A stretch of DNA of 64,000 nt from Polytrichum commune (Eukaryota; Streptophyta; Polytrichopsida; Polytrichales; Polytrichaceae). Below, piece by piece: positions 7,601-57,169 of this stretch. The notes under the pieces are model-generated. The model was not told the DNA's origin, did no database searches, and saw only the letters and a program-made list of their open reading frames with translations. Made by a program: the position numbers and the translations under genes. The stretch lies in NCBI GenBank assembly GCA_950295325.1, contig OX485805.1, forward strand, positions 48,818,758-48,882,757. Reading direction: 5' to 3'. Each line of letters starts with the position of its first letter. The first letter of the stretch is position 1.

Positions 7601-10600
7601 AGGCAAAGATAGAACATTCCTTAATGCCCATTCAAAGTGAGAGGAAAAATTACCTATCATTGCAAGTGGCTTGAATATTGTGCGAATCGCATGGTCTTAC
7701 CACTTAGTTCCACTTGATCATTTTATGATCTAGAATACTAAGATGGTAGATTCTAACTTAGTATACTAGATCATAATATAACCATGTGATGAAAGACAAC
7801 CGGTTCACACCGGGTCCCAAATCCATGCAATCTGAGCCGTTGAGAGAATGGAAGTTGGGACTTATCATTTCACACGGGTCCCAAGTCCTAAGTCCCAAGT
7901 ATGACATGGATGTCTACATGACAACACTTTTGGAGGTGAGGCTTGGGAGTTGTGTTGAGAGTTGCGTCAAGCGAAAAGCTAGTAAAAGACCCAACTCGTA
8001 ACACAAGTCCCCATAAGTTTTTTTGCATAAACTAATCAAATTTTGACTTTAATGGATACAAATCATACTTTGATGGTTTCTTGAGTCTCAAAAGTTGGGG
8101 CTTTGCCTCCATGTTGGGACTTGTTGACATGAGACTGTGGGACTTGGGACCCCATGTGAACCAGCCCTAAGACCACATAAATCCCATTATAGTGTTTGTG
8201 TATTCCTCCAAAAATAAGAAGTAACGTTATTTAGTGGGTATAAATGCTTTGCCTATGTATGTGTTTCAAAATAAACTAAACATGTTTTGAGGGCACACAT
8301 GTTGTTTACACATGCTTTATACACAAATGTGATGTGTGGGGATTCAAAACAGGTGTGGATTTGCATTGTAAAGCAATGAGTTGTGTGGGAATTTGTGACA
8401 TGTGATGCAATTGGTGTCAAAAAGAGGCCACCCCATTTTAATGTATCTTGACATAAATTGATAATCATAACAGTTTAATGCAAACACTATTATTCTTGAG
8501 GACAAAGAATTGGACAAAAGCATATCTTACTAGTTATTTGTGGAGGTTTGGTGCCCAAATCAACCTCTTTCAGGGTAACTCTTTTGATTGTTTGTAAAAC
8601 ACCATATTCAAGCTCATCCATAACTTTCTTCTTCGAAGCACAAAGTACCTGATGAAAGGATTTAAGCCACAACACACTGGTTCAAAATCATCGATTCAAA
8701 GGTACATGAAGCAGTAGTAGAATGATTATTTAAGCGATAATGTTATGAGTTGTATGGCTATGTTACACAATGGTCTACAAGTTGACCGAAAGGGTACATA
8801 AATGACACATGGAAAAAAATCTTCCTCTTGCATACTAGATTATCAACATATGAAACCCACCATCAATATGCTCAATAACATCTTCCCATTGCATACTAAA
8901 TTGCAAAACTATCATCTGAAATATCCCAATATGCTACGTTAAATATCATAATGTAAATAAACTCTCATCTCAGAGAGTTACTTATGTTGACAAATAGTAT
9001 CTCGTTGATAATTAGTGGGCTTGACACTTTGAAACCTCTAAGCATCTAGTTTAAATTGTTCACAAATAGTGTGTGTTACACTAAATACCATAAATGGTGT
9101 ACCTATACAGGAAGATATCAATAAGTGATCACCTTGTCAAGGATCTTCCCAAACTTGGGCAGAGTCACAGCTCTCAGGCCAATGTGCTTACTCCCATCTG
9201 TGACATAGCCATCGATTTTTTCTTGCACTGCATTTTTGATACGATCTCCTAAATCCTGATCATGGAAGAAGAATCACAAACACATCCATAGCATCATCAG
9301 TCTTAAGACCGCCAAAGAAGGTATGTGGGCATTATTTGATTCGTTTTTCATGTTCTCCAACTCCTACCAATTAGATTTACACAACCAAACTCTTGTTGCA
9401 TTAGCAAATCTACGATGAAATATATGCAAAAAAAGGTTTGAAAATCGGACCTCCCCTAATTTAATTATGTTCATCGGATGTGTGTGTTTATTGATTTCTT
9501 AAAAAGATGGCATACCATAGCAGTGAGGCTACGCCATGTACACCTATTACTGTGGGTCGAAAGTTAGGATGGGTAGAAAATTTTGTGGCTCACTGTACTT
9601 TTATGTGTTGGTTTTAAAACTAGGGTAGCTTGTAAATTAAGTAAACTATAAATATCAAAATACATAATGATACATTATTAACATAATATTGAGATTTTGG
9701 TATTTTATTTATGTGATGTTGATATTCTATTCTCCAACCCATAGTAATTCATGTTTGAGTTAAGAACACATATTCCATGTTCCTAATTTCGAACGTATAA
9801 TATTGTGGGCTCAAAAGCGGCGTGGGTCAAGAAAATTTACATTGACCAAAATTATTATGCTATGACAAAAATATAGTGGGTCAAAGTTATTATAGATGCA
9901 GTAGGTGTAGTTCATCACTAACATACTATTACTTTTCCAATATGAAAACATTGCTAAATTAAAAAACTTAGTGCCATGACAATGAAATTCCGGAAAATTA
10001 AAGCTTTTGATCTCCTCAAAGTGACAAATCGAGCATGATGTCATGCTATTTCCATCATCATTTATGCATGTCAATATTCCTAACATACTTACACAACATG
10101 TTTTTGAATTGATGATGAAATTTTCAAATATGTTGTATGAAATAAAATCATATGAACACCCACCTTTTGAATGCATGGCCAAAGAGTGGTCGTGAGAGTG
10201 TTGAGCACTGCCACCTGATGCACATCTCCACCCATAAAGAGTATCACACAAGCAGTGGTAATTTAGGAGACCCATTGACAATGTCCATTCCAAACCTGGC
10301 AAGCGACTCAACCTGGATACATTTCATATATATATATATATAGATATACTCTAGCAAAAGCTCCTCAAAACAATGCTAAAAGTTGCAAACTTTGTAATTC
10401 CAATGGCACCACAATTATTGCTCCAAACAGAGACGGAGTCCAGCTAACAATGAACTCCAAACTCAAAACTCAAAACTCAACGGAGCTGCCAGAGCATATA
10501 TTCAAGGGAAGAAAGAATAGGTAGATACATCTTGGAAGCCGCTGTTTTGTAGAGTTTGAAGGATATTTTTCCTCGGATCCGAGGCCGCACGACGATTTGG

Positions 10601-12759: not shown

Positions 12760-12968
12760 CATCTGACGTACATTAACTACGTCAAATGTACACTAAGCAT
12801 AGCACATTGGAATGATGATGGACATCTAACGTACATTAACTACATCAAATGTACATTAAGCATAGCACATTGGAATGATGATGGACATCTAACATACATT
12901 AACTACGTCAAATGTACATTAAGCATAGCACATTGGAATGATGATGGACATCTAACATACATTAACAT
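12760..12968 (+). repeat. 63-bp minisatellite, about 3.3 copies
   Basis: A unit containing CATAGCACATTGGAATGATG is repeated head to tail with few differences. Because 63 is a multiple of three, the array is open in one frame and would give a repeated 21-residue peptide; I regard that frame as an accident of period length. Confidence 0.9.
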
Positions 12969-13004
12969 TAGATGAGGTACAGTTTAGTCTGCAAGGGGAA
13001 GATA

Positions 13005-13310
13005 TTTTTTAGCTTACTAATGGCAAGTGTCATGCGTTTACATTTTAATATGCAAGAGGAAGATATTCTTGAGTATAATAATGACACGTGTCATTTGTGT
13101 ACACTTTAGTCAACTTGTAGACCATTGTGGAACATAGACATCCACCTCATAACACTATTGAACATACTCATGCCAAGAAATTAGTAAGTGCACTTGAATA
13201 CCAAGTGTCATGAGGTGACACTAACGATAAAGTTGTTGATCATTAGTGTAACCTAGCATACGCCTCAAAACAAGGTCAGTGACATTATTACGCATGTGAC
13301 ACTAAATACA
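13005..13310 (-). mobile_element. TIR element family B, inverted truncated copy
   Basis: The reverse complement aligns with 13316-13640, best over the inner 200 bases. It ends at a terminal repeat 6 bases from the start of the neighbouring full element, so the two copies lie head to head and form a long foldback. Confidence 0.8.
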
Positions 13311-13315
13311 ACAAG

Positions 13316-13832
13316 CATTTATGGTATTTAGTGTCACATGCGTAATAGTGTCACTTACAATGTTTTGAGGTGTATGCTAGGTTACACTAATGATCAACAA
13401 CTTTATCATTAGTGTCACCTCATGACACTTGGTATTCAAGTGCACTTACTAATTTCTTGGCATGAGTATGCTCAATAGTGTTATGAGGTGGATGTCTATG
13501 TTCCACAATAGTCTATAACTTGATTAAAAGTGTACACAAATGATCCTTGGCATTAGTTCAAGCATATGTTCCTCACTGCATAGTAAAATGCAACACATAA
13601 CACCTACCATTAGTAATGATATCTTCCACTTGCAAATTAGAATGCAAAACTATCATCTCAAGTATCCAAATGTACCACGCTAAATGTTATGTATTTTTTT
13701 CACTTTAAAAAATTGTTGATCTTGACAAATGGTATCGTGTTTGACAATTAGTGGATGTGACACTTTGAAACCTCTATGCATCTACTTTAGGCCCTTTGCA
13801 AATAGTGTACATGACACTAAATACCATAAATG
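13316..13832 (+). mobile_element. TIR element family B, full-length copy
   Basis: About 517 bp, bounded by CATTTATGGTATTTAGTG and its inverse CACTAAATACCATAAATG, with a 22-base terminal match carrying one mismatch. No transposase frame. Related fragments lie at 8755-9107 and 59876-59975. Confidence 0.8.
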
Positions 13833-15557: not shown

Positions 15558-16194
15558 TCAAATAAGAAGAGGGATTAACATACAAAAATGATGTTTACTG
15601 TCATTCTTCCAAAGTGGGACAACATCATTGATAATGTCATCTATCCCCTCATCTAGCCCTTCCAAGGCAATTTGCAACATTGCCTCGAGATTCTTATTGC
15701 CCAACCTATTTCTAACTTTAGTCTTGATCAAATTATGCACACTAAAAGCACGCTCACACGTTGTTGTAGAAACACATTGCACATGAGCTAACTCTGCAAG
15801 AACGAGGAGGTTGGGGTACCGTACTTGCAAAGCATGATTCCAAGTTATCATGCCCCACAAATCCCTTAAATTCTTATCCACCCATTCCGTAGTGCACTGA
15901 AGTTTAAAGGCTACAAAATTTACGCTTACATGCTGCCTGGTCCACAAAAGGAGGTGGTTTGAAACTTCCATGTGAGCGGTCTACCCCATAAAGGCCCAAC
16001 AAAGTATCCAATTCAAAGATACACCAATTTTGTAAGCCCACTTGCCCTAAAGGCATATTAGTCAGGTTTAAAATCTTAAAGCAAGAAATCAAGTCATTGT
16101 CACTGAAGTGTGCATCAAGGGCGGAACTCCAACTATGCATAGTATTAAAAAATATATGTATGGTTGACTGCCCGTCATGAAAAATGCCTTTCAA
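15558..16194 (-). pseudogene. hAT-superfamily transposase, C-terminal relic
   Basis: The minus strand encodes a typical hAT C-terminal dimerisation segment: CERAFSVHNLIKTKVRN, preceded by YPNLLVLAELAHVQCVS and followed by a short acidic tail. An upstream frame (16194 to about 15910) supplies FELDTLLGLYGVD and FKPPPFVDQAA, and a frameshift near 15920-15950 separates the two. The N-terminal zinc finger and the RNase H-like core are missing or unrecognisable, so the element cannot encode an active enzyme. Confidence 0.75.
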
Positions 16195-32625: not shown

Positions 32626-32883
32626 TAGTGCAATGTGGCAAAGATCGGCATAAAATTTTTAACTTGTCCAAAGAAATTTATACCGGTGGTACAAAGGTGT
32701 GAGGTTAGGGGTCAAGACCACATTGTAGAATTGTTGGATAAAAAGGGTTAAGTCCACTTTACAAAATGTCATGTGACCAAGGTTTCTAAAAAATGACATA
32801 GATTTCTCCTCATCATGGCTCCATACCATGAGAAATCCCACATCATTCTTTCTCATGGGCTTTTAGTTGTGAACTGACCCTTA

Positions 32884-33221
32884 GGGCCAAGGGATCCCGA
32901 TTCCCAAGTTCTACTCATATTAGCAAGTCCCAACATGGAGGCAATGTCCCAACTTTGGAGCCTCGTGAAATCAGTAGGTTTTGAATTATATCCACTTAGA
33001 TAAGATCTCAATTATTTCATGCAGAACAAATATTGGGACTTGTGTTGGGAGTTGGGTCTAGCTAGAGCCAATGGCCATCCATGTCATACTTGGGACTTAG
33101 GACTTGGGACCCCATGTGAAGTGGTAAGTCCCAACTTCCATGCTCTCAATGGGTGAGATTGCACATATTGACCTCAAGTGAATTAGGACTTTGGACTATG
33201 GAATATTCGTGAACCAAATGT
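32884..33221. mobile_element. MITE family A, copy 2
   Basis: Shares the body with 7799-8170 and 36299-36690 (CAAGTCCCAACATGGAGGCA, GACTTGTGTTGGGAGTTGGG, CTCTCAATGGGTGAGATTG). It abuts the next copy head to tail, and its terminal sequence is diverged. Confidence 0.6.
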
Positions 33222-34265
33222 TAGGGCAGGTCCACAAGGGGTCCCAAGTCCCAAGTCCTAGTTATGTCAGCAACTCCCGACATGGAGGCAAAGTCCCCAA
33301 CTTTTGAACCTCAAGGAACCATTCAAATATTCAGTCGGATCTTGATTATCTTCTGCAAAAACTATTCTCGAGACTTGTGGTAAGAGTTGGGTATGGCTTT
33401 TTGCTTGACCCAACTCTCAACAGAAGTCGCAAACCTCACCTCCAAAAAATGTTGCCATGTAAGCATTCATGTCATAACTTAGGACTAAGGACTTGGGACC
33501 CCGTGTGAAGTGGTAAGTCCCAACTTCCAAGCTCTCAACAGTTGAGATTGCACATATTGACCTCAAGTGACTTGGGACTTAGGACTCGAAACCCCGTGTG
33601 AAGTGGTAAGTCCCAACTTCCAAGCTCTCAACGGTTGAGATTGCACAGATTGACCTCAAGTGACTTGGGACTTAGGACTCGAAACCCCGTGTGAAGTGGT
33701 AAGTCCCAACTTCCAAGCTCTCAACAGTTGAGATTGCACAGATTGACCTCAAGTGACTTGGGACTTAGGACTCGAAACCCCGTGTGAAGTGGTAAGTCCC
33801 AACTTCCAGGCTCTCAACGGTTGAGATTGCACAGATTGACCTCAAGTGACTTGAGACTTAGGACTCGAAACCCCGTGTGAAGTGGTAAGTCCCAACTTCC
33901 AGGCTCTCAACGGTTGAGATTGCACAGATTGACCTCAAGTGACTTGGGACTTAGGACTCGAAACCCCGTGTGAAGTGGTAAGTCCCAACTTCCAGGCTCT
34001 CAACGGTTGAGATTGCACAGATTGACCTCAAGTGACTTGAGACTTAGGACTCGAAACCCCGTGTGAAGTGGTAAGTCCCAACTTCCAGGCTCTCGACGGT
34101 TGAGATTGCACAGATTGACCTTAAGTGACTTGGGACTTAGGACTCGGAACCCCGTGTGAAGTGGTGAGTCCCAACTTCCAAGCTCTCGACGGTTGAGATC
34201 CCACGGATTGACCTCAAGTGACTTGGGACTCAAGAACTCAGGACCCAGTGTGAACGGGCCCGTAA
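33222..34265. mobile_element. MITE family A, copy 3, expanded by internal satellite
   Basis: The left end AGGGCAGGTCCACAAGGGGT and right end GTGTGAACGGGCCCGTAA match the family termini. The normal body is followed by about eight copies of one subterminal segment, which makes this copy about three times longer than its relatives. Confidence 0.7.
33480..34250 (+). repeat. 93-bp satellite, about 8 copies
   Basis: The junction CCCCGTGTGAAGTGGTAAGT recurs every 93 bases (its CCGT at 33501, 33594, 33687, 33780 and 33873, and onward). Copies are nearly identical in the middle and diverge at both ends, as expected from unequal exchange. Single copies of the unit exist in family A MITEs elsewhere in the window. 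Confidence 0.95.
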
Positions 34266-35592
34266 AAAGATATAGTTGACAGCCTAGATATTGAAAGCCA
34301 CTGCATGGAGTCCTTCTATTTGCTAGAAGGGACGAAAAACAAATTGTCCCGTTTTTTGTTGTTGAGTTTGATGATAGCTATTGACTTGAGCAATTGTGGT
34401 CCTGGATGATAAGTTACTCTGGAGTCTCATGGGTGGCAGGGCAGGCTCCAACTGTGCCTCAGTACTACCAAATTGTAAGTAAGCAGCAAAAATATATTGC
34501 CCAAATATTGCATGCTTATTAATGAATGGCTCACTTGACCAGGCCACCGCAAACTGTAGCAATCGTACGTGTACCAATTTAAATAGGACGCCCATTAACC
34601 TCTAAAGGCCGAGGCCGATATGTTGTTGTTCGGCAAGTTATCAAGGTGTTCGAGAATACCAACACATATGTTTACGTTATAATCTTCTGGTTTTGGACAC
34701 GTGGACTACTGAAAGTTTTAAGTGATTATGTTTCGGTCTTCAACGGTTAGCTTCTGAGTGTCTGAGGGTGTCCAAATGGGTCTCTCTGTGCATGAAAACA
34801 TGTATTTGAGTTACATACACCTATTCTAAAGGGTGGTCAAAGTTCAATGACCGGATGATGAGTGTCTCTCATAATGAGCTTGGATGTCTATTTTGAAACA
34901 GATGGTCAATCCTTGCAACGGGCAACACCCTGGGCATGAAATTCTTCTTCTTCCTTCAAGTCTCAGTAGCCTTCTACGAGCTTCAAAAAAAAGCTTTGGA
35001 GCATCGCTCTACTTCAAATTAAAACGAAATTGAACAAGACTTGCACCTATCTGTTCTTGAAACGTTGAATAATCTCCATTCCGAGTGGGGTCCTTGGATG
35101 AAGACATGAGGTGGCTCCGCAATGGTTTCTTGTTATGAAGAGGACTTTAATTCCCGGGGATTGGACTTTTCATACCATGTACGAAGTACAATATCGTGAG
35201 TGTAAGAAGGGGTATTATTTGAGGCATTAGCATGCATCATATACATAAGGGAGAGGTGTTATTTTTCATTAGTTTGTACATTTAAGTAGCCTATTAAGAG
35301 TTTTGAAGTAAACATAGATGTACAAAAGGGGGCCCTAAGTTTAGAGAAGAAACTGACAATAGATATGTGAATTCAATCCGGTCCACATCATGTATTGTTG
35401 TCATATGGCTCGCACCTTCACATCATTTGTCATGCTTTTATTCTCTAAAGATTTGTAATTCCTCTTACAATAATATTATCTATCTTGGACAATGTTTTGT
35501 CCATATTAGAGCCACATACAAAATTGTTGCAATACTAGTTAACCCCAAACCGTAATCGGTGTCACAACTTCAGTCCCCATGATGGTCTCTTC

Positions 35593-35970: not shown

Positions 35971-36298
35971 AACGATAACTATAGCCCCACCAAACGCTTC
36001 AAAATCGCCGAAAGATTATTGTGAATACAAAATGTTCTACGAGCAAAATTGATGGCCATACGTTGCACCCTCCAAATCCTCACCATCACTTATAGTAATG
36101 AACTAGCTTGATGTCATGTATCTACTATAACACCCAAGTCAAACACCCCACAATGCATAAGACCACTTTTAGCTCCATTAAGAATTGCTTGGGAGAGGTC
36201 ATTGGCTGACACTACATTTCTTGCATGTACTCACATAGCAACACCATGTCATTCTACGACCACAAGAATCAAACTCAGAGCATATAATATGGAATCAA

Positions 36299-36690
36299 GG
36301 GTCAGTTCACACAGGGTCTCAAGTTCCAAGTCCCACTCATGTTAGCAAGTCCTAACTTGTGAGCCTCAAGTAATCACTAAAATATAGTTGAATATCATTA
36401 AAGTCGGATCTTGATTATTTTATGCAATACTATTCGCGGGACTTGGGTTGAGAGTCGGGTCTAGCTTTTTGCTTGACCCAACTCACAACACAAGTCCCAA
36501 GCCTCACCTCCAGAAAGTGTTGCCATGTAGGCATCCATGTCATAGTTGGGACTTAGGACTTCGGACCCCGTGTGAAGTGCTAAGTTCCATCTTCCATGCT
36601 CTCAACGGTTGAGATTGAATGGATTGACCTCGTGTGACTTGGGACTTGGGACTTGGGACTTGGGACCCCATGTGAACCAGCCCTAACACC
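36299..36690. mobile_element. MITE family A, copy 4
   Basis: The left end GGGTCAGTTCACACAGGGTC is the inverse of the right end GGACCCCATGTGAACCAGCC; the right end is followed by CTAA. About 390 bp, with one copy of the 93-bp satellite unit near the right end (about 36560-36660). This is the reference form for the family in the window. Confidence 0.8.
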
Positions 36691-39053: not shown

Positions 39054-39390
39054 TGTCCGTTTAAGGCCCCGATTACCTTACATTGCATAATTGCATAAAC
39101 ACGAGTTACACACCGAGAATGGCCAAGAATTATGCATAGGGGTCAATGATTGTTGTGTTAGGCCAAAACCCCAATAATGCATGCTCAGGAGCCCACTGCC
39201 TGGATGTCATTGCATATAATGCAGGCAGCCTTGGGGCCCACTACTACCAATGGCCACCCCCCCCTATACGGAAAACCCTAATCATCATGGGACTCAAGGG
39301 TTATGCCAAGTCAACAAGTACTCGGAGTCGGGCCCCATGGAGATCCCATCGTCATTATTGGGCCTCACATTTTGAAGGAGGACACTCACT

Positions 39391-39905
39391 TAGGGCCACC
39401 TCACACACGAGACCGAGAGCCCGTGACCAAGACACTTCAAGCACTCTCATTGGTGGAAAAGGGGGAGCCGGTCCAAGTTTGCTTCACACCACGTTTGAGG
39501 GACCAACGGAGTATGTGAATGCAAGATGGATGTAAAGTCTACGTGGATCCCTACATGGCATCGAATGGATCATGTTTCATGGTCACTTTGACTATTTTTA
39601 GAAAATGCCTTTTGGAGGGAGGTCTAACACAAAACTGGGAGACCATGGTACTCCAAACGCTCACAACCGTTGATTTATTCTATTTTATCATGCGTGAGGA
39701 CCCACGTGAATAGAAATTCATTAAAATAGCATTTGGTTGAGGGTCTAGTCACGTATAACTTCACACTACACTTGAGGGTCCATGACCACACTACATGATT
39801 TTGGAGGTGTCTTGGGACGGCCTTTGGACACTTTCTTAATTGGACACATGTATTTGACTGGCGTGTGGCTAGGCAAGGTTTGAAGAACAAAAACTTTAAA
39901 GACAC
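39391..39905. mobile_element. MITE family F, copy 2 (one end eroded)
   Basis: The left terminus AGGGCCACCTCACACACGAG matches the right terminus of 47308-47814 inverted. The body aligns with that element in reverse complement, including the ATGGCATCGAATGGATCATG stretch. The far end has diverged past about 39860. Confidence 0.65.
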
Positions 39906-45199: not shown

Positions 45200-46480
45200 G
45201 TTGGGTGGTCATCCATGTCATTCCCCTCCATTGGCTCATCATTCGACTCTAAACCCAAATGGACTTCTCTCTACCCCATGCCAAATCCACCAACTCATCC
45301 ATGTTGTACATTGCATCAACAATTTCCTCCCTTGCAACTGCACATAAAGATGAAACGGGACTCGCCAATTCATTTGCCGCTTCTCTCATTCTCGACATCT
45401 CACGTTTATCACCCATGGCAAAATCAACACTCCAATTTGCATGTAGAATCTTGGGCATCCTTTAGTTGTTTCGTTGGATTTGGGGGTTCATCTCTCCCCA
45501 CACTTGAGAGCTCCACACAATAGCATGCCTTACATTAGGCGTTGTTTTCTTCGAGTTTTGGTGAGTAGTCGAAGAATCAAACCGAGAGAGAACCCGTTTT
45601 GAAAGCTTCTTCTTATATTGAACTTTGAATGAAGCAATCATTCCATGATCCAACAGTTGTACCATGCTTACAACATTAGGTGGTAAGAAGACAATAGTAA
45701 GGGGTTGTTTACATCATGGACCATGAAATCGTCCCTTGCTCCTCTAAAAAGTGTAATTGGCCATTGAACTCGTCCTAGAAATACTTTGGTTTACATCAAG
45801 AAAAAAGAAAAAAGAAAATGTAAGAGTGACCATGGAATTATGAGGTCCCTAAAAGGCCTAATTTTAGGCCTATATTCCACTATCATGGTCCAATAGGGTT
45901 TGCAATGGGGAGAGGCAAAAGAGGTTCTCTTTCTACAAATGTTAGGGGACCGTGGTAGAGAATTCCCGCTTTATATATTTATTTAATCATTTTTTTTGGC
46001 CAAATAGTTTTTCATAGTTATGAGGAAAGCAACGAAGGAGAAAAGGAGAAGGGGAGAAGGTCAAACATGAATATAATCCCCATAACTTCTATTTTTGGAC
46101 ATATATTTAAAAAGTCCATGCATCCACTTTCTGGTACATGGTCACTTCTCTCAGTCCACATTTGGTGTACACCTAGTCAAGGGCCCAAAGGCTTTAAGAA
46201 GACATTGTTTTTAAATAAAAAATAAAAATCAGACCACGGAAGTGTTACCATGAACTGTGACCATTGAAAAATGCCCTTTGACATGGGACAACTTTTGGTC
46301 CATGATGTAAACAACCCCTAATATTGCTCAACTATAAGGTTGAAAGAGGAAAGGTTTCACTACTACCAACATGCTTAAGGGAATGAGTAGCATAATTATC
46401 CATAACAAAAAGCACATTATGCTTTTGAGGTTTGAAATGTACATTGAAACTCATCATCCAACTCTCAAAAATATCTAATG
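45200..46480 (-). pseudogene. pogo/Tigger (DDE_1, CENP-B-like) transposase, C-terminal half, disrupted
   Basis: From about 46480 down, the minus strand encodes ALDIFESWMMSFNVHF and VLFVMDNYATHSLKHVGSSE, then LSNI. After the MITE, it continues with LPPNVVSMVQLLDHGMIASF, QYKKKLSKRVLSRFDS, VRHAIVWSS and ILHANWSVDFAMGD. The order, including the DN aspartate-asparagine signature and VVSMVQ.LD, is that of the catalytic core to C terminus of pogo-like transposases. Disruptions are an in-frame TAG just before the MITE, frame changes, and a TAA before ILHANW (at about 45462). It cannot give active enzyme. Confidence 0.75.
45701..46318. mobile_element. PIF/Harbinger-type MITE inserted in the pogo transposase
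   Basis: Terminal inverted repeats of about 22 bases begin GGGGTTGTTTACATCATG and are flanked by the direct repeat TAA (45698-45700 and 46319-46321), the 3-base target preference of PIF/Harbinger. 618 bp and non-coding. Removing it rejoins LSNI with a following segment that leads into LPPNVVS of the transposase. Confidence 0.85.
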
Positions 46481-52648: not shown

Positions 52649-55600
52649 ATGTTTGGTCGTGGAGCTAATACCACAAGAATGAGAGGTCGCAACGATGGCG
52701 GTGCTGCCCAGAAGCGCCGAGTGTTCATCACCGTGTGCACTTTGGTGCTCATGGTGTCGTTGATCACGCTGTACCATGGGTCCTTCTTCAGCAATCGACG
52801 GAGCAAGAATGTAGTGGAGGCAAACTTCGATCCAGCGTCGTCCGAGTGGTCTGCTTCTCTCACGGAGAAGAATACCAAGATTAGCGACGATGAATCTCGG
52901 AGTGTGCGTGAAGAGGAGGTGGAGAAAGCAAGGGCCGACGTTACCCTCGAGGATCGCCACACCGATGTGCTGGAGTCCTCGAAGGGCGAAGAAGAGGAAA
53001 CCAAGGTGGACATAGATGCGGAGATTAAAGACGACACTCCTGTGGAGACCAAAGATGTTGAGGTCGAAGCTAAGGAGGATGCCCCCATTGAGGTTGAGGC
53101 TAAAGATGACAGCCCAGTCGAGAAAGAGGTTTCCGAGAAGGAAGTGTCCGAGAAGGTAGATGACGATGGATCCGCATCTCGCGATGCCGAACAGGGTCAG
53201 GAAGCTGCCTCATCCGACGAAGACGCGCCCATCAAACCTTTCCCAGTAAGTGTTGTAGGAATTCATGTGGAATAGGGGGGGTTAGATTTAGATTCCTCCC
53301 TTTGTTTGGACGTCCGTAAGAGAAGATCTCCATGGCTGAAGCTTCTAATCACCTCGAATCCTTAAGGTTTATCCTGAAGATCCCTTGTGGGTGTATGTCA
53401 TGCTATTTATCTTTCTTGAAGTCCATTCCTCCTCCATGCATTCACTGTCAAGGTCGATGGCATTGTAGAAATTCATGTGCAGCAGGGGGCTAGATCTCTT
53501 CATGGTTTGGATGTTCATGGAGGAGGTCTGTGGTTGAATCGTCTAATCACCTAGTGCCCGAGAGGTTTGGCTGAGAGATCCTTTGTGGGGTGTACATCAT
53601 GCGGTTGCCTTTCTTGAAGTCCACTCTTTCTCCATGCATTCACTGTCCAGATCGATTGCATTGAGTTTGTGGAAGATGCACCTTATCAAACCTTTCATAG
53701 TAAGTATTTCAGAAATTCGTGTGCAACAGGGGGCTAGATGTAGATTTATCCATAGTTTGGATCTCCATGGCGAAAGTCTGAAGATGATTGAAAAATTTCA
53801 ATCACCCAGTGTCCTCAAGATTTGACCTCAAGACCTCTTGTGGGTGGACATGCATGTTATTCGATTGTGTTTCTTGAAGCCCACCCCTTCATGCAATCAC
53901 TCAATCTCAAATTCCATTGAGTTTGTCAGATCTAAGAACCCGTCTGAATTTTCCACTCTGGTTCTCATTCTTTGGTAGCTCAATGCGTGGCTAAGGTGGA
54001 TTAGGATGTTGCGGTGTTTGGAATACTGAGGATGCAACATTGGGTTTTCCAGGTTTGTGAGGCGAAGTACACGGAGATTATCCCTTGCTTGGACCTTGCC
54101 CTGCAGAAGAAATTGAAGCTCAAGGTCAACCATTCCAACATGGAGCATTACGAGCGCCACTGCCCTCCTCCTAATCATCGATTGCATTGTTTGATTCCTC
54201 CACCTGCCAACTACAAGGTAGGGGAGCAACAACTTTTTAAGTCGATTGCGCATGTAGACTCAGCCGCTGTAGATCTGGCATGTGATCTAGTGTTTTCTGT
54301 TTTCTGGTCAGTAATTGTTCTGGTAAGCTGATTCGCGAGGACTGAGGAATGGTATAACGTATTTAAGATATTGCTGAACTTCTTACCAAGGATTTTCTTT
54401 AGAATCCTGTAGGTTTTTCTTAGAAGGATCCTGATTCTTTTCCCTTCGTGGAGAGCTCCTCGATGTCTCTGAATAAGACGATTGATGCTAGGCATGGCAA
54501 TGTTTCTTGTTGAATTCGACAAGCCATTGTTCGTATCTGATTATCTTCATCTTTTGGCTGGGGCTTAGGTACCAATCAGGTGGCCAGAAAGTAGAGATGA
54601 AGTCTGGCAAGCGAATGTTCCTCACACCTTTTTGGCTACCGAGAAGTCGGATCAGCATTGGATGGTTGTAAATGGTCAGAAGGTGAACTTCCCAGGTGGT
54701 GGCACACATTTTCCCAATGGCGCGGACAAGTACATTGCTTCTATTGCAAAGGTATTGATCTCTTTGTTTAATTCGTACAGAGTATTGCAGTTTTTCTTTG
54801 TCATATCTGGATGAGTAGTATGCAAACTCGATTTGAATCGAGACATTTTTTCACAGTCCAGAATGACTAGGTAGGATGCTTGTTTCTCGATAGAAGTATC
54901 ACCTGGATAGCTGGTGATTTCTCATAACTTTCAGGACCTTCGAAAGTGCTTGCAAAAATTACGTCAAGATTTTATCAAGAATTATAGCCTTGCGATCCAT
55001 ATCCATTACTGTCCGCGACCTCAACCTATATTCTGCTTTCTGTGAATCTCCTCAAGTACTCACAATCAATCCGCATTTTGTTGTATCATCAACAGATGTT
55101 GAAGAACGAGGAGGGAAACTTGACTTTGAATGGTAAAATCAGAACTGTTCTGGATGTGGGTTGTGGAGTGGCAAGCTTCGGTGCATATTTGTTGCCTCTG
55201 GACATTATTGCAATGTCTGTAGCTCCAAATGATGTCCATCAAAATCAGATCCAATTTGCTCTTGAAAGAGGCATCCCTGCAACTCTCGGAGTATTGGGTA
55301 CAAAGCGTCTACCATATCCAAGTAAATCATTTGATTTGGCTCATTGTTCTCGCTGTCGCATTGAGTGGCACCAGAGAGGTGGAATCCTGCTCCTGGAAGT
55401 CGATAGGTTGTTGAGGCCAGGGGGTTACTTCGTCTGGTCTGCCCCCCCTGCTTACCGTGAGGATCCAGAAGATGTGGAGATTTGGAAGGCGATGACCAGC
55501 CTTGTGAATCGTATGTGCTGGTCGGTGGCTGCTCATCAGGACCAAACAGTGATATGGCAAAAACCTTTGACGAATGAGTGTTACGAGAGCCGTGAAGAAG

Positions 55601-57169
55601 GAACTGAGCCACCGTTGTGCAAAAATCCTGAACCAGACAGTGCTTGGAATGAGCCTATGGAAACTTGCATTACTCCTTTGACAGGTGCAATTTGAATTTG
55701 AATCTGGAGATGACATTTTCCATAGTGTGGATTGTTTTTGTACGAAAGTGGGGTCAATTGCTTTTGGTTTTCTCCTGATCTTTGTACTGTGAGTGGTTCA
55801 CTGTTCTTGATTATCTGTTAAGTGTGTACTCTGTATATAGCTCAAACTCTTCGTTGATCTGGACAACTGCTCAAGGATGGTTTGTTGACCTCTTTCTTTT
55901 GTTCTGTAGGTGAAGGTCCCATCGTTCAGCCTTGGCCTAAGCGTATGTTTGCCCCTTCACCTCGACTGAAGGAGCTCAACATCAATGAGAAGAAATATCT
56001 CATCGACACTGTGAGTTATTGGTTGCCTTTCTTGAATAAAGAGGTTTTGAAATACTGCGGAGTTTCTTGGGGCCTGGTTTATTGCATTTAATGTACTTAC
56101 ATATTTTAGATTTCGATCACTAGTTGTATTCTATCTATCTCCTCACATAGGAAAGCGTTATTAATCTTACACATGGTGTCAGGGTTATCTGTTTCTGAAA
56201 GCAAGGTATTTATTGTTATTCTTGTTGTTACTGCAGCGTGTGTGGAAGAAGAGGCTCAATCTGTACTGGAGCACTTTGAAGGGAGCTAACCAGGTGGAGC
56301 AATATAGTGTACGGAACATAATGGACATGAAGGCAAACTTTGGTGGTTTTGCTGCAGCACTAAGAGAGAAGGAATTTCCTGTCTGGGTTATGAATGTTGT
56401 TCCCTCAGCTGGCCCTAACACCTTGAAGATTGTTTATGACAGAGGCTTTATTGGCTCCATGCATAATTGGTAATTCTCAGGATCCGTTCCCAACCTTTCA
56501 AGAATAGTATAGGTCTTTGTTTTGAATGATTTTTAGTGCTTGCCTATAGATGGCCTTACTCAGATAGTTTTGTCTGCCATGACTTTTGAGGTTTGATTAG
56601 TTGAGCCGAATTTAGTAGGTTGTTTGATTATTCATGAGTGGACATGTCTTGGGTTTAGATGGTATTTTTCTGAGGCTTTTTGAACTAAACAAACTGAGGC
56701 TCAACAGTAAGGTTAACTCCCTAGAACCAAGTATAATATACTTGAATGACTTATTAGATGCATAATGTATTTCTACTTCTCTTGAACTATACTGTGGAAA
56801 AGCAAGTCATATTGTTGAGTGAAGCTCACATTTAGGGGTTTATTTGGCTACTGCAGGTGCGAGGCCTTCTCGACATATCCACGCACATATGATCTTCTGC
56901 ATGCATGGAATGTGTTCTCTGATATTGAGAAGGCCGGATGTAGCACGGAGGATCTATTGCTAGAGATGGACAGAATCCTACGACCAATGGGCCTTGTCAT
57001 CATTCGGGATAGGTCGGCTACTGTCGATCGCATAACCAAGTACCTTGAGGCAGTTCGCTGGTCACAATGGCACCTAGTCATTGAAGCCGAAAAAGATGAC
57101 CTCTCTGATGCAGACGAGAAGATTTTGTTTGCGAGGAAGGAGATTTGGCAACCTGAGGACGTCTTGTAA
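52649..57169 (+). CDS. probable pectin methyltransferase of the PMT20/PMT21 (ERD3) type
   Basis: Predicted role: Golgi type II membrane S-adenosylmethionine-dependent methyltransferase (DUF248) acting on pectin or related wall polysaccharides. Exons: 52649-53245, 54053-54217, 54569-54751, 55096-55684, 55910-56010, 56237-56469 and 56857-57169 (TAA), with phases closing exactly; 726 aa. One membrane anchor lies at about 25-43. Residues 60-198 are a strongly acidic, repetitive stalk. The conserved region starts at IPCLDLALQKKLKLKV, then MEHYERHCPPP, WMVVNG and FPGGGTHFPNGADKYI. The first SAM site is DVGCGVASFGAYL (about 335-347), with HCSRCRIEW and LLEVDRLLRPGGYFVW. The second half has VRNIMDMKANFGGFAAAL, VWVMNVVP and CEAFSTYPRTYDLLHAWNVF. 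These phrases match the PMT20/21 clade better than PMT24-26. An ATG 42 bases upstream is in frame but precedes a G-rich stretch; 52649 gives a typical basic N terminus. Confidence 0.92.
53228..53900 (+). repeat. three tandem ~220-bp copies in intron 1 of the PMT gene, including exon-end duplicates
   Basis: Copies start at about 53228, 53460 and 53680. Copy 1 begins in the last codons of exon 1 with the true donor. Copy 3 contains TATCAAACCTTTCATAGTAAG-like sequence mirroring exon-end ATCAAACCTTTCCCAGTAAG. Shared phrases include GGGGGCTAGAT, TCTTGAAGTCCA and CATGCATTCACTGTC. Confidence 0.85.

Follow-up and report, generated by a model that had tools for sequence, protein, structure and literature searches.

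A family of MITE-like elements with one array-bearing member

The window, by which we mean the whole 64-kb stretch of Polytrichum commune DNA analysed here, contains four copies of a roughly 390-bp MITE-like element, designated E1 to E4 (Table 1). When 33222-34265 was searched against the window using blastn (E ≤ 1e-3), 47 of 47 matches, array self-matches counted, fell within these four elements, and the 93-bp unit that is repeated in E3 was not found by this search elsewhere in the 64 kb. E1, E2, and E4 each carry the corresponding segment once. For 36299-36690 (E4) and 7799-8170 (E1) this had been recorded in a first-pass annotation of the sequence and is borne out by blastn, with the qualification that E1 has lost part of the segment. 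The same annotation had described all four elements as sharing termini and body. The bodies of E4 and E1 are 82% (191/233) and 81% (202/249) identical to that of E3, respectively, but the termini are not common to all four, as both ends of E2 are eroded and the right end of E1 lacks part of the segment. The terminal sequence TTAGGGCTGGTTCACA is exact at the right end of E4 and the left end of E1; the left terminal inverted repeat (TIR) of E3, TTAGGGCAGGTCCACA, differs from it by 2 mismatches and the right end of E3 by 4, and all ends other than these two exact ones and the left end of E3 are eroded. In E2, ~7 bp are missing at the left end, the right end is degenerate, and part of the body has been lost.

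Table 1. Positions of the MITE-like elements and of the array-related features in the window
Feature	Coordinates	Strand	Basis and remarks
E1, single-copy member, reverse orientation	7799..8170	-	blastn; segment partly deleted; core spacing 65
E2, single-copy, internally deleted member adjoining E3	about 32881..33219	+	blastn, core spacing 93
E3, array-bearing MITE-like element	33221..34265	+	left TIR TTAGGGCAGGTCCACA at 33221; right end near 34264
93-bp tandem array, 8.1 copies	33477..34230	+	TRF, unit table; u1 33477-33569, u8 34128-34220
Internal copy of TIR core, start of u1	33477..33513	+	core alignment
Terminal TIR core of E3, diverged outer array bound	34221..34264	+	94 bp after u8 core
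E4, single-copy member, ~390 bp	36297..36686	+	blastn; core spacing 100; extra GACTTGG heptamers at right end

As expected of a MITE, E4 is a short element (~390 bp) with terminal inverted repeats, and the family is present in multiple copies, four in 64 kb, without coding capacity. Among the 22 open reading frames of at least 120 aa (stop-to-stop) in the window, a single one, 34000-34377 on the minus strand, overlaps a family copy, and it passes through the array and continues out of E3. Because 93 is a multiple of 3, a portion of the array is read as this open frame of 125 aa, which has a 31-aa repeat and bears no sign of being a gene. A single strand of E4 (36299-36690) folds with a z-score of -9.14, with 0 of 100 shuffled sequences folding as well, and the element is therefore foldback-like. 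Read by eye, the flanks are TTA...TAA for E3 and CAA...TAA for E4, neither being an unambiguous target duplication; E2 is flanked by TTA on each side, although the right-hand TTA belongs to E3 and is separated from E2 by four bases. A candidate 8-bp target duplication at E1 was imperfect and was dropped. PIF/Harbinger (Tourist-like) elements generate a 3-bp TWA target duplication, and TTA or TAA beside a GGGC-type TIR is compatible with membership of that superfamily, but the duplication here is not clean. When the letters of the TIR were used as a literature query, no related paper was recognized by title. Immediately before E2, at 32869-32883, lies GTGAACTGACCCTTA, the inverse of the left end of E4 except for its last base, which stands back to back with the TTAGGGC of E2 and is perhaps what is left of another family member, or else an aberrant end.

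The array is bounded on both sides by E3 sequence

Tandem Repeats Finder (TRF) identified 754 bp of E3 as an array of period 93 with 8.1 copies, 96% matches, and 0% indels, in agreement with the annotated estimate of about eight copies at an exact 93-base period. Across 33222-34265 the self-identity at a lag of 93 was 0.749, while 100 first-order Markov resamplings peaked at 0.309 at any lag from 20 to 299. Eight full units, u1 to u8, were cut in phase from the array. On its left the array is bounded by the body of E3, the preceding 93 bases differing from each of u1-u8 at 70-74 of 93 sites, and on its right by the own, diverged end of E3, so the earlier observation that the array still ends in the element's own end is upheld. 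E3 thus contains a tandem array of an element-derived unit with element sequence on both sides, the arrangement seen in arrays internal to transposable elements of the Tetris, Xstir, and miDNA4 kind. Folding of single units revealed no special hairpin structure in the three of eight that were folded (z-scores of -1.29, 0.51, and -0.88).

Pairwise, u2-u7 differ at 0-5 of 93 sites, while the edge units are the most diverged, u1 and u8 each differing from the others at 6-11 sites. From u1 to u8 the mean number of differences per unit is 8.57, 3.14, 3.71, 3.14, 3.71, 3.14, 5.14, and 7.71, which confirms that the middle units are most alike (3.1-5.1 for u2-u7) and the edges diverged (8.6 for u1 and 7.7 for u8). 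Units u4 and u6 are identical in sequence, leaving seven distinct sequences among the eight units, and u5 and u7 have one site in common.

The array period corresponds to the spacing of two native TIR cores

The right end of the element natively consists of an internal TIR core, a spacer, and a terminal TIR core, with the two cores forming direct repeats. The common core is ~33 bp long and the spacer is ~60 bp, with a small palindrome (CTCAACGGTTGAG). Within E3, 33480-33507 is complementary to the left TIR at 33233-33260 (89% over 28 nt), and the internal core of E2 pairs with the left TIR of E3 over 37 nt at 84%. When each right end was aligned with itself at successive shifts, the cores of E2 matched at 22 of 33 sites at a shift of 93 (next best 18, at 86) and those of E4 at 29 of 33 at a shift of 100 (next best 21, at 93), while at the outer edge of E3 the core of u8 and the terminal core are spaced by 94 (21/33 matches). 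The spacing of 65 in E1 reflects the deletion of part of its segment and has weak shift support (16/32 at 65 vs 15 at 64). From the spacings in E2, E4, and the edge of E3, it follows that the period of the array is the native spacing of the core pair, the match being exact in E2, within one base at the E3 edge, and within one heptamer in E4. The last of these arises as the spacing of 100 equals 93 plus one GACTTGG heptamer, and TRF detected 4.4 exact copies of GACTTGG at the right end of E4 (36636-36666), which suggests variation in the TIR core itself, in steps of 7 bp.

The cores at the junctions between units (u2, u5, and u8 as aligned; u2-u8 in the unit table) have the left context of the terminal copy, CCTCAAGTG and once CCTTAAGTG, and the same cores, u2-u8, have the right context of the internal copy, GTGTGAAGTGG. 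This combination places the crossover within the common ~33-bp core, and the junction contexts are what exchange between two cores would leave. A narrower crossover position was sought and rejected since the diagnostic sites conflict, the array matching neither the internal nor the terminal copy of E3 cleanly. A relationship between the spacer and the left part of the element was likewise considered and is not claimed, the matches being weak (best E 0.023 among the matches listed). The two-core pair at the right end, which the first-pass annotation had missed, is the likely cause of the array.

Divergence of the units and of the single-copy segments

All four copies have homologous segments, at 84-93% pairwise identity with u1 standing for E3, which settles in the affirmative whether the unit has counterparts in the other elements. 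Mean Jukes-Cantor (JC) distances, computed on 92 shared columns, were 0.023 among u2-u7 and 0.055 for u1-u8. The single-copy segments of E1, E2, and E4 were at a mean distance of 0.161 from each other and of 0.162 from the array. As the inner units are ~seven times less diverged than the single-copy segments, the array either postdates the spread of the family or was homogenised later. Distance rises with separation in the array (r = 0.57, a proportion of 0.001 of 5000 shuffled orders being as high), a trend partly driven by the two edge units u1 and u8. A two-unit (186-bp) higher-order step that was suggested by eye was rejected, a proportion of 0.48 of the 720 orders of u2-u7 being as extreme. 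The role assigned earlier to unequal exchange is therefore upheld in part, in that it is consistent with the divergence of the edge units and with distances that increase with separation, while the 186-bp step is not significant.

In a tree of the units together with the single-copy segments, the outgroup comparison that had been proposed for this array, the eight units were not set apart from the neighbouring E2. A single separate origin of all eight is accordingly not claimed, only 38% of 200 bootstrap trees grouping them. In 139 of 500 shuffles the unit label was clustered at least as strongly, five of the seven inner branches were weak, and E2 falls with the units (92/90 for E1 and E4 against the rest).

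Possible exchange between the array and the adjoining element

E2 directly adjoins E3. Its segment is 92.5% identical to u1 (86/93), while body identity between E2 and E3 is 73.4% (141/192; Fisher p 0.00013); for E1-E3 and E3-E4, segment and body identity are alike (p 0.50 and p 0.75, respectively). However, the E2 segment also exceeds the E2 body in similarity to E1 (p 0.024) and to E4 (p 0.008), and the effect is therefore partly due to a fast or decayed E2 body. Informative sites unite E2 with E3 in 3 of 3 cases within the segment and in 1 of 8 cases within the body (p 0.024). A fair reading of these comparisons is that E2 and the array have exchanged sequence; a subfamily common to E2 and E3 is another reading. 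Because the E2 segment may have exchanged with the array, its spacing of 93 may not be an independent witness, and if such exchange took place, the independent spacings are those of E4 (100) and the E3 edge (94), neither of which is exactly 93.

Proposed origin of the array

We propose that E3 is probably a MITE/foldback-like copy whose two cores seeded the array by exchange or slippage, with expansion thereafter. The starting point would be a non-autonomous DNA transposon with two direct cores ~93 bp apart at its right end. Misaligned exchange or replication slippage between these cores could duplicate a single unit of core plus spacer. The perfect 93-bp repeats so formed could then grow to eight units through additional rounds of unequal exchange or slippage, which would keep the interior units similar while those at the edges lagged behind. 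What is observed are the array and the sequence that bounds it, the paired cores of the single-copy members, the agreement between their spacing and the array period, and the context at the junctions. From these we infer the exchange events, their order, and their occurrence at the site of E3, and from three single-copy relatives, in a comparison of four elements only, we infer the direction from one unit to many.

The array may instead have formed in an earlier copy elsewhere, E3 having inserted with the array already present, which we consider unlikely. Nothing within the window ties amplification to the E3 locus, and copies of Tetris and miDNA4 are described, in the portions of those reports available, as having variable internal repeat numbers at several places, but E3 is the only one of the four copies in the window that has an array, and the possible exchange with E2 would weakly favour events at the E3 site. 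It is decidedly improbable that the multi-unit state was ancestral and that the same exchange process reduced E1, E2, and E4 to a single unit each: exchange between repeats is bidirectional, and a contracted array would presumably resemble E2 or E4, but three contractions to exactly one unit would be required, and the inner units are much less diverged than the single-copy segments, a difference that concerted evolution could mimic.

Whether the unit number reflects the genome is a separate matter, as short tandem arrays are frequently mis-sized in assemblies. That assembly error created or altered it is nevertheless extremely improbable, given the sequence differences among the units, of which only u4 and u6 are identical. 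That the unit was a pre-existing repeat taken up by the element has a published precedent in Xenopus, as described in part of a review (PMC12628747), but it is very improbable here because the TIR core of the element lies within the unit and the array period is the same as, or close to, the native spacing of the cores.

The first-pass annotation had called the array a satellite born from a transposon and a direct snapshot of satellite birth. Amplification of a segment within one MITE copy is supported by the homologous segments, the element bounds, and the alike inner units, but the snapshot claim is too strong for a 754-bp array compared across four elements with units not separated from E2, and the term satellite is premature for one such array in a 64-kb window. 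It is possible, if doubtful, that the second direct TIR core acts as a built-in seed that sets the period, so that 93-bp (or 93 plus 7n) arrays arise repeatedly from the family, and that the array also exchanges with abutting members and so spreads past its own element.

Relation to published systems

Arrays born inside MITE or foldback ends have already been published (Tetris, Xstir, and miDNA4), and the E3 array is of that kind. The available part of PMC4079207 describes Tetris as a foldback element with TIR-internal tandem repeats that seeds satellite arrays. As in E3, the tandem repeats of Tetris/TIR-220 in Drosophila virilis are located within the TIR of an element that is foldback-like and non-autonomous, and 37 bp of its unit (~80%) are common with the terminal domain, comparable to the 93-bp unit, which has its core in common with the terminal TIR. 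Tetris differs in that its unit is ~220 bp, its TIRs reach 1.7 kb, its arrays are of kb size, and the assembly contains 610 units, whereas here there is one array of eight in a ~390-bp element. Reviews, consulted in excerpt (PMC12628747, PMC6947457, and PMC9659126), between them name Xstir, miDNA4, rye D1100, and others. With a unit of 93 bp and cores of ~33 bp, the E3 array would fall within the range of the first step of array formation described in this literature. Xstir, a Xenopus MITE, likewise has an array derived from an internal MITE part and occurs as MITE, array, and composite forms, but for it the excerpt of PMC12628747 gives a stem-and-loop hybrid between two neighbouring elements as the proposed origin, while here two native direct cores could suffice. 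The Tc1/mariner MITE miDNA4 of Xenopus tropicalis contains one or many satellite-like monomers, according to the excerpts of PMC12628747 and PMC9659126, and, as here, short flanking direct repeats are invoked for copy-number change; it differs in that capture of a pre-existing repeat was proposed, the unit in E3 being the element's own end. The rye satellite D1100 is also a plant repeat tied to a MITE (PMC6947457 and PMC9659126, in part); it differs in its Tnr1/Stowaway assignment, listed in a table of PMC9659126, and is likened to our array by description only. In corals, the part of PMC2872659 available describes tandem arrays of whole MITEs.

This very case was not met in the open-access literature searched. 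There were no matches in phage or plasmid collections and one 20-base pattern had no match in viral contigs, collections that say little about a plant repeat. What distinguishes E3 is that unexpanded copies beside the expanded one predict the period, exactly or within one 7-bp subrepeat, with the likely pre-state (E2 and E4) and the expanded state (E3) within 4 kb. If arrays in other copies are likewise seeded by the two cores, the initial stage of array formation, which is usually lost, would be countable across the family.

Other features of the window

A further element of ~630 bp at 45692-46326 has inverted ends (TAAGGGGTTGTTTACATCATGGACC and its inverse) whose end stretches match at 85% over 47 columns, with TAA on both sides. 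Another repeat family with a similar end is represented by copies in opposite orientation at 39390-39500 and 47817-47704, which are 89% identical over 114 columns and both start with TTAGGGCCAC. A 63-bp tandem repeat (3.3 copies, 96%) lies at 12760-12966, and the adjoining 12980-13120 recurs inverted at 13513-13634 (75%) and 8775-8903 (71%). The minus-strand fragment at 15558-15980 contains a hAT dimerisation domain (PF05699, E 2.3e-07), and 54988-55695 encodes a Methyltransf_29 domain (E 1.3e-91), a family typical of plants.
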